From assembly GCF_001513975.1 (NCBI RefSeq), contig NZ_KQ947986.1, forward strand, positions 288,713-352,712: a stretch of 64,000 bases of DNA, read 5' to 3'. Numbering within the stretch: position 1 is the stretch's first letter; each line of letters starts with the position of its first letter. Shown one piece after another: positions 3,488-61,380 of this stretch. Under the pieces are notes generated by a model. That model ran no database searches and had not been told where the DNA came from. It was given only the letters and a program-made list of their open reading frames with translations. A program made the position numbers and the translations under genes. Source of the DNA: Streptomyces curacoi (GTDB lineage Bacteria; Actinomycetota; Actinomycetes; Streptomycetales; Streptomycetaceae).

Positions 3488-6139
3488 TCATCCGGCTGGT
3501 GCGCTCCCGTCGTGCCGGGTGGTGTGGTCCATGGGCGATACGTCCATGGGTGGCCGGGTGGTCATGGAGGTCACGTCTGTGTGGAGTGCGTCCAGGGAGG
3601 TTGGGCGCAGGCCTGTGGGCTGCGGGCTCCCCGTGTCGAGGCTCGTCGGCTCCAGGCGGATCGACGCCGGGCGCACGGACTCCAGGCGGGTGGGCTCGGA
3701 GGACGTGGGGTCCAGGCGGGTCGGCTCGGACTCGGGCGACATCGGGTCAGGGGTGATGGGCGTCGAGGGGGTGTAGGCGGATGTGCTCGGGCGTGGGGTG
3801 AGGGTGTGTGCCGAGCCCATGTGGCCGAAGTCCATGTGCCCCGAGTCCATGTGGCGTCCGTCCACGGGACCTGAGTCCATGTGGCGTGCGTCCAGGGGAC
3901 CCGACTCCATGTGGCGGGCGTCCGCGTGGCCCGAGTCCATGTAGCACGTGTCCATGTAGCGCGTGTCCATGTGGCCCGACTCCACGTGGCCGGACGTTGT
4001 GTGGCCGGACGTTGTGTAGCCGAAGGTCGTGGGGCTCACCGTCGTGTGGCCTGACGCCGTGTGCGGGGCATCCATGTGGTCTGCTGCCCCAGGCCGCGTG
4101 TTCATGGACCCGCCGCCGCTGTGACCCGGTTCCCCGCGGTCCGATTCCCGCCGCCCCGACTCCGCGGATCCGCCGACCGTGTGCGCGCCGCCCATGGGCT
4201 CGGCACCCATGTGCCCGCCACCCATGTCTTCTGCGCCCGTGTCCTCGGCGCCCATACGCCCGGGCTCCACATGCCAGGCCTCTACATGCCCGGCATCCAG
4301 GTGTCCGGCCTCCAGATGCCCGGAATCCCCATGCGCCGACTCCATGTGAGCCGACTCCATGTGCTGCTGCGTCTCGGCGAGTCCGATGCCCCGCTGGAAG
4401 GCCGCCATCAACCCGGGGTCATGCCCGGCGAGGTGGTCGGATTCCTGGCGCGGTGCGGGGCCGCCACGGAGCTGGGGCGCGATGTGTTCCTGGGCGCGGC
4501 GCCGGGGCAGCTGGGGCTTGCCCATGGTGCCGCGGACGGTACTGGTGCGCGGGGTCGGCGGTGCGACGGTGTTCTCGGCGAGGAGCCGGCGTTCGTCGGG
4601 CCTGATGCCGGGCACGGCCTCCGACGGGTTGGGCCGCTCCTCCTTGGCGCCGCGCACGGGCAGCGGTGCCGGCCCGCTGCCGTCCGTCCTCGCGTCCGCG
4701 CCCCGTCCGCCGGTCCGCGGCTGCTGCCGACGCGGCGTCCCCGGCGACGCCTCGGCCGCGCCCCGCTGTCCGCCCTCCGATGCGGCCGGGGCGGCCGACG
4801 CGGGCTGCCGATGCTGCTGGGGCGGCACCGGGGTCTGCTGCGCAGGTGCCTGCGAGGTGGTGTGCGGAGGCACGGCCGTGCCCGCCGCTCCCTGCGGTTC
4901 CTGCGTGCGCGCCGCGCCTCCGCGGGCCCCCGGCTCCCTGCCCAACACCCCTTGCGGCACGACGAGTACGGCCTGGACACCGCCGTAGATGTTGGTCTGC
5001 AGGCGCACCTGGATGCCGTGCCGCTTGGCGAGCTGGGACACGACGAACAGCCCGATCCGCCCGTCCGCCAGCAGGCTGGCGACATTGACCTGGTCGGGGT
5101 CGGCGAGCAGGGCGTTCATACGGTTCTGCTCGCCGACGGGCATGCCGAGCCCGCGGTCCTCGACCTCGACGGCGAGCCCGGAGGTCACGAGGTTGGCCCG
5201 GAGCAGAACCTGGGTGTGCGGGGCGGAGAAGACCGTGGCGTTCTCGACGAGTTCGGCCAGCAGGTGGATGACGTCGGCGACGGCGTGCCCGCGCAGGGTG
5301 CCGTCGATGGGCGGCACGAGTTTGACCCGCGAGTACTGTTCGACCTCGGCGATGGCCGAGCGCAGCACCTCGGTCATGGAGACCGGGTTGCTCCACTGCC
5401 GGCGGGAGACGGCGCCGCCGAGCACGGCGAGGTTCTCGGCGTGGCGGCGGATGCGGGTGGCGAGGTGGTCGACGTGGAAGAGGCCCTTGAGCAGGTCGGG
5501 GTCCTCGATCTCGTTCTCCAGCTCGTCGAGGATCGAGATTTCGCGGTGCACGAGCGACTGAAGGCGCCGGGCGAGGTTGACGAAGACCTCGAGCTTCTGT
5601 TCGCTGCCCGCCTGGCTGGAGAGCTGGGAGGCCTGGACGACGGCGGTGACGGCTCCGTCGTGGGCGCGGGCCAGGTCGGCGGCGAGCAGTTCGAAGTCGT
5701 CGGCGCCCTCTGGCGGACCGCTGCGCGACTTGCGCTTCGGCGGACCGTCACCGCGCCGAAGCGCCTCGACGAGGGCCCGTAGATCGGCCTCGCCGCGTGC
5801 GCTGCTGCGGCGCAGGGCGCCGATGCGGTCGCTCACGGACTTGGCGGTGCGGCGCGCGGCGACCGCGGCGATCAGGATGGCCGCGAACGTCACCGAGACC
5901 GCCCCGGCGAGCACGCTCCACAGGGTGAGGCTGGGCCGTGGTCCCGTGGTGCGCACGACGAACAGCACGGCCGCGCAGGCGCTGAGGGCCACCGCGATGG
6001 GCGGCAGCACGGCCAGCCGCAGCAGTTGGGGCCGTATGTGGGTCTCGGGCAGCGCGGGCGCGGTGCGGGCGGCCGGGCGCCCGTGCCGCCCGCCCTCACG
6101 GCGGTCTGCGCGTGCGGCCGGGGCGCGGAGTTGAGACAT
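3488..6139 (-). CDS. cvnA: Conservon sensor histidine kinase-like protein CvnA
   Basis: Membrane histidine-kinase-like protein, about 883 residues from ATG 6139. Two membrane segments lie near residues 39-63 and 72-96, then a coiled linker, then an HATPase_c domain with the N box LLAELVENATVF, G1 VEDRGLGM and G2 GRIGLFVV. No classical phospho-accepting H box is evident, as in other CvnA proteins. After a Pro/Gln-rich linker the last 290 residues are a period-5 His/Met-rich repeat (separate entry), which I do not know from other CvnA proteins. The frame stays open to 6379, but a possible -10 (TACTGT, 6273-6278) lies inside that extension and an ACGAGGA sequence precedes 6139, so the shorter form is preferred. 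Confidence 0.9.
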   Translation of the reverse strand: MSQLRAPAARADRREGGRHGRPAARTAPALPETHIRPQLLRLAVLPPIAVALSACAAVLFVVRTTGPRPSLTLWSVLAGAVSVTFAAILIAAVAARRTAKSVSDRIGALRRSSARGEADLRALVEALRRGDGPPKRKSRSGPPEGADDFELLAADLARAHDGAVTAVVQASQLSSQAGSEQKLEVFVNLARRLQSLVHREISILDELENEIEDPDLLKGLFHVDHLATRIRRHAENLAVLGGAVSRRQWSNPVSMTEVLRSAIAEVEQYSRVKLVPPIDGTLRGHAVADVIHLLAELVENATVFSAPHTQVLLRANLVTSGLAVEVEDRGLGMPVGEQNRMNALLADPDQVNVASLLADGRIGLFVVSQLAKRHGIQVRLQTNIYGGVQAVLVVPQGVLGREPGARGGAARTQEPQGAAGTAVPPHTTSQAPAQQTPVPPQQHRQPASAAPAASEGGQRGAAEASPGTPRRQQPRTGGRGADARTDGSGPAPLPVRGAKEERPNPSEAVPGIRPDERRLLAENTVAPPTPRTSTVRGTMGKPQLPRRRAQEHIAPQLRGGPAPRQESDHLAGHDPGLMAAFQRGIGLAETQQHMESAHMESAHGDSGHLEAGHLDAGHVEAWHVEPGRMGAEDTGAEDMGGGHMGAEPMGGAHTVGGSAESGRRESDRGEPGHSGGGSMNTRPGAADHMDAPHTASGHTTVSPTTFGYTTSGHTTSGHVESGHMDTRYMDTCYMDSGHADARHMESGPLDARHMDSGPVDGRHMDSGHMDFGHMGSAHTLTPRPSTSAYTPSTPITPDPMSPESEPTRLDPTSSEPTRLESVRPASIRLEPTSLDTGSPQPTGLRPTSLDALHTDVTSMTTRPPMDVSPMDHTTRHDGSAPAG
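3530..4365 (-). repeat. Coding 15-bp tandem repeat in cvnA (period-5 peptide)
   Basis: A 15-nt unit is repeated without a register break for more than 50 units, encoding pentapeptides of the type HMESA, HMDSG, HLDAG, HVESG and HTTSG. The N-terminal 35-40 units have His or an aromatic at position 1 and Met, Val, Leu or Thr at position 2. The C-terminal units drift to RLEPT and SLDTG forms. The unit lacks the A(D/N)LXX signature of quadrilateral beta-helix pentapeptide proteins. It is probably unstructured or metal-binding; this is inference. Confidence 0.85.
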
Positions 6140-60221: not shown

Positions 60222-61132
60222 CTAGGCGGCCTCGAACCAGGCGACGCGATCGAGAAGTTCGTCCCGGCCCATCGCGTCCGTCTGCGTCGACGGCACCACG
60301 CAGGCGTGGGCGCCGGCCACCGCGCCGTACAGGGCACATCGGTGCGGTGGCTCGCCGGACAGCATGCCGTGGAGGAAGGCGGCCGCGAAGGCGTCGCCGG
60401 CGCCGTTGGAGTCGACCACCGGCGCCGGTGGGGGCACCGCGGGAACGTGCGTGATCTCTCCGGCGGTCAGGAGGTGGGGCCCTCGGCTCCGGCGGTGGCG
60501 ACGACCACCTCGGCCCTGCCCCGCTCGGCGATACGGCGCATGGTGCGCGCCGGGTCGGTCAGGGCGGCCGCGGAGAGGAACACCACGTCGGCCGCGTACG
60601 CGAACGGCTCGTGGTACGGGTTCTCCCCGTCCCAGTTGTGCAGGTCGGTCGAGAGCGTGACGCCGGCCTCGCGGAGGACGGGCAGGGCGTGGGCGCAAGG
60701 GTGGGTGATCGACACATGCGCGTGACGGCTCGCCCCGGCGAGGGTGCGCAGAGTGTCCTCGGGGAAGCGGTCGTCCGCGTGTGCCCTGCTGGTGTCGTAC
60801 AGGGACAGCCGCCGTCCGTCCGGCCCCACCAGGTTGACCGCGCGCTTGGTGCCGGCAGGCTGCGGGATCGCGGTCAGGGCGATGCCGCGCTCGCGGTGCA
60901 GGGCGCGGACCAGGTCGCCCTCGGGGTCGTCACCGAGGAAGTCGACATGGTGGACGCGCAGGCCGAGGCTGCACAGACCGACGGCCACGAAGTCCCCTGT
61001 CTGACCGGCGCGGGTGCGGACCCCACTGTCGATCATGTAGCTGTCGGCGTACGGGAGCGGCAGCTCGGGGACGTACACGATGGTGTCGACCCCGGCGCCG
61101 CCCAGCACGAGCACGTCGATGTCGTAGCTCAA
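60222..61132 (-). pseudogene. PfkB family carbohydrate kinase, frameshifted
   Basis: PfkB/ribokinase-type sugar kinase of about 303 residues in two frames. The N-terminal part (VLVLGGAGVDTIVYV, VHHVDFLGDDPEGDLV) reads from TTG 61132 (GGAGGG 6 nt upstream) to a premature stop at 60467. The second signature VVDSNGAGDAFAAAFLHGML with the catalytic Asp is in another frame, ending at 60222. Adding one C to the CCCC run (GGGG at 60476-60479 on the plus strand) joins AEVVVATAGAEGP to HLLTAGEI and restores a normal kinase. Its start overlaps the end of the macro-domain remnant by 4 nt. It may be intact with a sequencing error. Confidence 0.83.
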
Positions 61133-61341
61133 TTCCGGCCCTCCCCGCGGTCGTGGACGGTGACGGCGATCTCACCCGGCGGAGCGGCACGCGGGGGAAC
61201 GGTGGGGCGTGTGCGGGTCGCAGGTGGCCGGTCGCGCAGTTCCCCGCGCCCCTTCGGGGCGCGGCAGACATGGGCGATCATCTTGACGCCCGTCACCGAC
61301 GGAACGGTGGCGTCACCCCGGATGCAAGTGATCTCCGACAT
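61129..61341 (-). pseudogene. Macro-domain gene remnant cut by a dispersed repeat
   Basis: The 70-residue frame begins as a macro-domain protein: MSEITCIRGDATVPS then VKMIAHVC, matching the start of ADP-ribose-binding macro proteins up to the point where an N-D-x-G-x-W-G-x-G block should follow. After residue 26 the match stops at once and the sequence changes to the translation of a common GC-rich intergenic repeat (RAPKGRGELRDRP) and unrelated DNA. Normal family length is about 150, so most of the domain is gone. The frame's stop overlaps the PfkB TTG start. Confidence 0.72.
61200..61264. repeat. Dispersed Streptomyces GC-rich repeat with hairpin
   Basis: CGCGCCCC-TTC-GGGGCGCG (61245-61263) is a perfect 8-bp stem with a 3-nt loop, followed on the minus strand by GGGGAACTGCGCGACC and GGCCACCTGCGACCC. 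The combination recalls, from memory, a short element scattered between genes in many Streptomyces genomes. Its hairpin end coincides exactly with the break in the macro-domain gene. Confidence 0.7.
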
Positions 61342-61380
61342 GACGCCACCGTAGAGGCCGCCACTGACAGCGGCCGCTGA

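Follow-up and report, generated by a model that had tools for sequence, protein, structure and literature searches.

A macrodomain gene relic carrying a dispersed repeat ahead of a PfkB-family kinase gene in Streptomyces

Introduction

The closest described relative of the locus treated here is SCO6735 of Streptomyces coelicolor, a UV-inducible macrodomain hydrolase gene with a permease gene upstream and a DNA-damage promoter of the RecA-NDp type (PMC5087735 and PMC9411070). The locus of Streptomyces curacoi, found in a 64-kb stretch of DNA which we call the window, resembles SCO6735 in its gene family, judged by sequence, in its upstream permease and in its RecA-NDp promoter; it differs in that only 26 + 13 of 162 codons are kept.

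A second component of the locus is a short dispersed repeat, for which the nearest described elements are REP sequences, BIMEs and REPINs. The repeat shares with these a short and partly palindromic sequence, a location in spacers and up to hundreds of copies; neither Streptomyces nor Actinobacteria is named in the main text of PMC3733652 or PMC2817692. The inverted pairs and tandem runs seen where copies are most numerous may be a further likeness. The Streptomyces repeat differs in its longer conserved tail and in a consensus which, by eye, contains neither GTAG nor CGTC.

Lastly, translational coupling, in which the stop codon of one gene overlaps the start codon of the next, is a known arrangement, as are leader peptides. 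From the layout and the frame statistics reported below, the gene pair resembles them in its TTGA or ATGA stop-start overlap and its short upstream frame; the difference is that the upstream frame is here the relic of a full enzyme gene, a state apparently reached several times independently. Repeated breakage of one small gene within a single genus, where sisters with whole and with broken copies can be compared, amounts to a natural experiment with many replicates, and the locus lets one ask whether overlapping gene pairs constrain how the upstream gene may die.

The relic and its surroundings

The minus strand of the window carries a 70-codon ORF at 61129-61341, at the place where a sequence-only reading of this DNA had described a macro gene cut at codon 26, at a GC-rich hairpin element. 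Codons 1-26 can indeed be aligned with macro proteins from relatives; the similarity ends exactly in front of the hairpin element, as had been described. At this site relatives possess a macrodomain gene of about 162 codons before a PfkB-family kinase gene, commonly behind an amino-acid permease gene; the whole macro gene adjoins PfkB in S. diastatochromogenes, S. regalis, S. viridochromogenes and others, with the permease upstream where found. Translation of the whole gene gives a match at E 1e-88 to PDB 5e3b ("Macrodomain protein"), which we take to be SCO6735 itself. Since the 70-amino acid product alone gave no Pfam match at E up to 1, the identity of the ORF rests on its relatives. With 26 + 13 codons left it falls short of a full-length macrodomain (about 160 residues), and it is a relic of an SCO6735-type macrodomain gene and not a member of the family.

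The junctions, placed by blastn and MAFFT against whole genes, reveal 93 bp in the position of codons 27-149, which in S. viridochromogenes are 123 codons or 369 bp long (Table 1). The reading frame is kept through the break (26 + 31 + 13 = 70 codons), and since the last 13 macro codons are still present in frame at the 3' end of the relic, we are dealing with an internal replacement and not with a simple cut. The sequence-only reading was correct in calling the gene truncated, as comparison with the nearest relatives shows, and had missed the retained 3' end. It had also stated that relatives with the same short frame and no macro gene would speak against any truncation; these were looked for, and relatives such as S. 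regalis, S. cyaneus and S. viridochromogenes carry the whole gene at the same site instead, so that truncation did occur. Its proposal that the element supplies the overlap with the PfkB start is ruled out, because the whole genes of near relatives end in the same TTGAGC overlap, which is the native macro stop, PfkB having TTG as its start codon.

Table 1. Features of the relic and its neighbours (window coordinates)
Feature	Position	Strand	Basis
RecA-NDp type DNA-damage promoter, TGTCAGTG-N8-TACGGT	61348..61369	-	sequence; promoter type reported for SCO6735
Retained macro 5' end, codons 1-26 (MSEITCIRGDATVPSVTGVKMIAHVC)	61264..61341	-	alignment with whole genes of S. regalis, S. viridochromogenes and others
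93-bp insert (31 codons) for codons 27-149	61171..61263	-	blastn and MAFFT against whole genes
Part of insert matching the dispersed repeat family, ~57 bp	61206..61262	-	best other genome copies 88% identical here; conserved columns
18-bp repeat core GCGCGGGGAACTGCGCGA	61232-61249	-	core counts
Remaining insert, like half of a second palindromic module, GGCGGAGCGCTNCGCC	61171..61205	-	by eye
Retained macro 3' end, last 13 codons (IAVTVHDRGEGRN) and stop	61129..61170	-	alignment with whole genes
TTGA, native macro stop / PfkB start codon overlap	61129..61132	-	same in near relatives' whole genes
PfkB-family kinase, 5' part of frameshifted frame	60467..61132	-	Pfam PF00294; rest continues in 60222-60698

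Within the retained 3' end, GGGGAGGG looks like the Shine-Dalgarno sequence of PfkB. The second palindromic module is also found, by eye, at the 3' side of several other copies of the repeat.

Upstream, the TACGGT of the promoter, for which we assume the RecA-NDp motif given in Table 1, is separated by six bases from the macro ATG. The spacing is identical in all 77 pattern matches among 392 genus genomes, the pattern having allowed 6 to 10 bases. The window locus has both features of the SCO6735 type, the RecA-NDp promoter and the permease upstream, and by sequence and promoter the lost gene belonged to the DNA-damage response, inducibility being known for S. coelicolor only.

The PfkB gene behind the relic is itself broken in the window by a one-base frameshift at 60470-60485 (near 60.48 kb), which had been missed in the sequence-only reading. 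Both pieces match PF00294, with 25.7 bits (cut-off 25.8) and 45.1 bits. The frame is open in every one of the 80 named relatives, the window alone being frameshifted, which represents either real decay or a sequence error.

Recurrent loss of the macro gene

A trace of the macro gene is present at 72 of the 83 loci with this PfkB (80 named, the window, G007 and G013), and by our reading of the alignments the gene is whole at 42 and broken at 30 of these. The 11 other loci (L216, L220, L221, L223, L224, L226, L227, L228, L230, L231, L232) were treated as traceless, one of them, L228, having a weak C-terminal macro match. G017 (L017), with a broken macro gene and a damaged PfkB, stands outside the tree and the counts. 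On the PfkB tree, which is based on one gene and 649 columns, the whole and broken states need 22 changes, at least 11 of which are forced by well-supported branches. The window falls in a clade of four (support 99/95) in which the gene is whole in S. regalis, S. cyaneus and S. viridochromogenes and broken in the window. On this tree loss of the macro gene is recurrent in the genus Streptomyces, a pattern that recombination between species could mimic.

The repeat was found in 8 of the 30 broken and in none of the 42 whole macro genes (Fisher 0.0005, uncorrected for kinship; a kinship-corrected test had too few informative pairs to decide). The repeat therefore goes with loss, yet is not needed for it, 22 of the 30 broken genes being without it. 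The whole-gene figure comes from a core scan with up to 3 mismatches in 41 genes and, for the other one, G013, from the positions of its 8 exact cores, all of which are away from the macro locus. Locus L170 was counted as repeat-bearing though its core is a variant, and L195, L196 and the L198 group, with sequence that may be a decayed copy, were not. The repeat-bearing alleles occupy six places on the tree by parsimony, at least four of them forced by support. A second sample was chosen independently of PfkB and comprises 77 loci with promoter and start from 392 genomes (55 whole, 22 broken), the two samples sharing species; here 5 of the 22 broken genes have the core no more than 600 bases from the start, one of them (L291) just past the gene's end, and none of the 55 whole genes contains it.

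All eight repeat-bearing alleles have lost most of the gene, and their near relatives on the tree are whole. At the loci examined there was no clean insertion of the repeat into an otherwise whole macro gene, and no target-site duplication could be read. Because the repeat was never seen inside an otherwise whole gene, its arrival and the deletion may be close in time. The break junctions differ between lineages; some right-hand ones are situated near the codons for PRIGCG (L192 and, by eye, L157, L159 and L170).

Reading frame of the relics

The start codon is kept in 17 of the 30 broken alleles; of these, 14 either read through in frame to the native overlap with PfkB or form an in-frame fusion with it. 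The former are the window (70 codons), L161 (39), L163 (39), L165 (54), L171 (40), L192 (114), L198 (29), L203 (29), L205 (95), L214 (31), L222 (112) and L229 (109); the fused ones are L182 and G007 (as L005), while L164, L172 and L233 keep the start and are out of frame. In S. sp. RB17 (L205) the middle part is in another frame and both ends are in one, so that two changes cancel. Fusion of the relic in frame to PfkB was seen in G007 and NRRL WC-3605. Grouped into events by our reading of the tree, merging those that are likely shared, 11/14 are in frame (binomial against 1/3, 0.0007), or 11/16 (0.004) once two more alleles that lose the frame, taken from the other sample, are included.

The PfkB-independent sample permits a comparison between broken genes with and without PfkB behind them, "without" being defined as no match in the 1200 bases after the start (1293 to 1536 bases per locus). 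In frame are 8/12 of the former versus 2/10 of the latter (Fisher 0.038); the value becomes 0.10 if the doubtful L244 is counted as in frame. When only large deletions are considered, 11/14 are in frame with PfkB versus 2/6 without (0.078). One of the eight, L241, has a PfkB without its own start region, and L236 and L251 are in frame though there is no PfkB behind them. A leader is not required, since 13 of the 30 broken alleles have no start codon and PfkB is open there. Overall, the pattern of frame retention is suggestive and does not amount to proof.

The explanation which we regard as rather probable combines the relic of a DNA-damage macro gene, a replacement bearing the repeat, recurrent loss, and a leader cistron for PfkB. 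Judged by tree and alignment, the 93-bp piece with its repeat copy replaced codons 27-149 once the lineage had separated from S. regalis, S. cyaneus and S. viridochromogenes. The repeat may in some lineages have arrived in the same event as the deletion, or have filled, soon after, the gap of an earlier deletion that killed the gene. As PfkB begins inside the macro stop codon, the relic retains the promoter, the start codon with the codons next to it, the putative ribosome-binding site of PfkB and the frame. Ribosomes which load at the macro start and end at the native stop would restart at PfkB, so that deletions preserving this path would survive best, and the relic could work as a short leader cistron for PfkB. 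In the window strain, where PfkB is frameshifted, the arrangement may already be decaying, unless the frameshift is a sequence error. The 8/12 versus 2/10 comparison weakly supports the persistence of relics as putative short leader cistrons. A further-reaching reading, which we hold to be possible but less likely than not, is that this gene of a DNA-damage-response enzyme has repeatedly, in many Streptomyces lineages, become a leader cistron of 29 to 114 codons, or an N-terminal extension, of the PfkB kinase, selection keeping promoter, start, frame and stop overlap and discarding the enzyme, with the dispersed repeat as interchangeable filler. If true, gene death would be a route to new bacterial leader frames.

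Plain pseudogene decay, which we consider possible though on the unlikely side, would have a dispensable macro gene breaking often, the repeat settling later in neutral spacer, and the frame surviving by chance and shortness of time. The 22 broken genes that are free of the repeat agree with this, as do in-frame relics with no PfkB to serve (L236, L251). Decay is less easily reconciled with 14/17 start-keeping alleles in frame, in excess of the expected 1/3, or with the 8/8 repeat-bearing alleles that are without most of the gene next to whole near relatives, which may place repeat and deletion close in time.

The dispersed repeat

The 18-bp core has 42 exact copies in the 8.4-Mb genome of the window strain and its backward-read control has none; at up to 2 mismatches there are 81 copies versus 5 controls. 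Only one copy is located within the window, in which the other matches have 4 mismatches. Of 199 genus genomes 109 contain the core, the number of exact copies per genome ranging from 0 to 652; outside the genus it was found in one of 116 genomes, as a single copy (from a spread of 119 phylum genomes); as found, the repeat is almost confined to Streptomyces. The sequence-only reading had described a GC-rich dispersed element common between genes of this genus, with which these counts agree. At the macro site the family goes with gene loss.

From the 81 matches in the window's genome 66 contexts were examined and three without the family's flanking sequence were dropped. In the remaining 63 copies conservation begins some 4 to 8 bases ahead of the core and fades about 25 bases after the core's start. 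By a crude codon score trained on 26 window ORFs, the 3' end of the flanking gene faces the element on 26/33 called left and 36/51 called right flanks; among the 28 copies for which both flanks were called, not one is placed between divergent genes. This preference for gene 3' ends is a further point in favour of the repeat settling in spacer after plain decay.

Being short, palindromic, many-copy and mostly intergenic, the repeat has the general characters of a REP or REPIN, the left half of the hairpin being weakly conserved. Inverted pairs are evident in the sequence of G083 and by position in G032, G105 and G097; in the window's genome the copies are mostly single or tandem. The Y1 transposase (RAYT, PF01797) has no match in the window's genome (G000); a match exists in 66 of 199 genus genomes, a set to which G083, the genome with 652 cores, does not belong. 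A REPIN driven by a resident RAYT is therefore rejected, and in this respect the repeat departs from REP, BIME and REPIN families with a RAYT. A known RNA family was likewise rejected, the single Rfam 15 match to the window repeat scoring 15.7 bits (E 1.4) against a gathering cut-off of 40. The window copy has a hairpin with no T-run behind it, unlike an intrinsic terminator. Its 111-nt RNA folds no better than shuffles (z 0.60), so that the short hairpin is the only structure that we claim for it. A printed sequence of the repeat was not found in the open literature; subscription papers were mostly outside this search, and a description may exist there.

At C1:40998-41468 of G083 and similar places (L094-L123), inverted copies on the left are followed by a centre of other hairpin modules and by tandem copies on the right, the tandem copies being about 57 bp apart. 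Inverted and tandem arrays occur at several of the eight places examined in this genome.

The repeat might itself be mobile, its insertion removing target DNA or its copies recombining to delete the DNA between them, and might in this way have caused the truncation here; we entertain this as a possibility of rather low likelihood. It would account for a repeat that occurs in broken genes, in at least four supported separate lineages, and was absent from every whole gene examined, and for copy numbers that differ, in a single genus, between 0 and 652. At a second filled/empty site, where the window's genome is compared with G128 (94% identical to it at the macro locus), the two versions likewise differ by a replacement and not by a clean insertion; this one case fits insertion with target loss. 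It is however the only extra filled/empty pair in about 216 kb of aligned DNA. As for transposases, of which the Y1 family was searched, none can be tied to the repeat, the window's genome and G083 being without a match. The ends of the repeat are ragged, and neither terminal inverted repeats nor target-site duplications of the kind found in MITEs were seen, two filled/empty comparisons having been made. Most broken genes, moreover, are without the repeat.

Streptomyces perform non-homologous end joining repair, and the repeat could have come in as filler DNA at a double-strand break, the middle of the gene being deleted and the gap mended with a fragment of a high-copy repeat. We think this improbable. 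Deletion and insertion at one place, with junctions differing between lineages, are as it would predict. The best spanning matches elsewhere in the window's genome are only 88% identical to the repeat part of the insert (40 of 162 candidates scored), so that no recent donor was found, and the recurrence of the repeat here in several lineages is unlike the outcome of random filling. A single ancestral insertion inherited by every repeat-bearing allele is rejected by the at least four supported places (six by parsimony) with whole genes between them; lineages may also have exchanged the locus by gene transfer or recombination.

Further observations

A perfect 12-bp inverted repeat, ACGGTGGCGTCA / TGACGCCACCGT, is present on the minus strand at 61304-61315 and 61341-61352 of the window. 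One arm overlaps the -10 box and reaches to the A of the macro start codon, and the other lies in codons 9-13. Among 53 loci scored (28 further loci, some of them whole, are outside this count) all 12 pairs, with wobble counted, form in 24/34 whole and 8/19 broken genes, and 11 pairs in 6 more whole and 9 more broken genes; the inverted repeat persists in the relics L202 and L204, which have no start codon. It may be a putative block to translation of read-through transcripts started upstream. Synonymous-site entropy in 37 whole macro genes did not single out codons 9-13, the first 28 codons being quiet overall and other runs quieter, and for this reason the inverted repeat is reported as noticed only.

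In four loci with a broken macro gene (L157, L159, L183, L196) no permease match was present in the 1400 bases upstream, and the upstream neighbour therefore seems to have been lost or moved. In G007 (L005/L242) the relic is joined through the repeat to PfkB in a 369-amino acid frame, the N-terminal part of which is partly repeat-encoded.

The repeat is also encountered at the other end of the PfkB gene, near 3900, where its hairpin loop contains the PfkB stop codon in L162, L168, L192, L215 and L217. At the same site L160, L161, L209 and L218 possess a longer subtype with an extra hairpin, as if an inner module had been exchanged.
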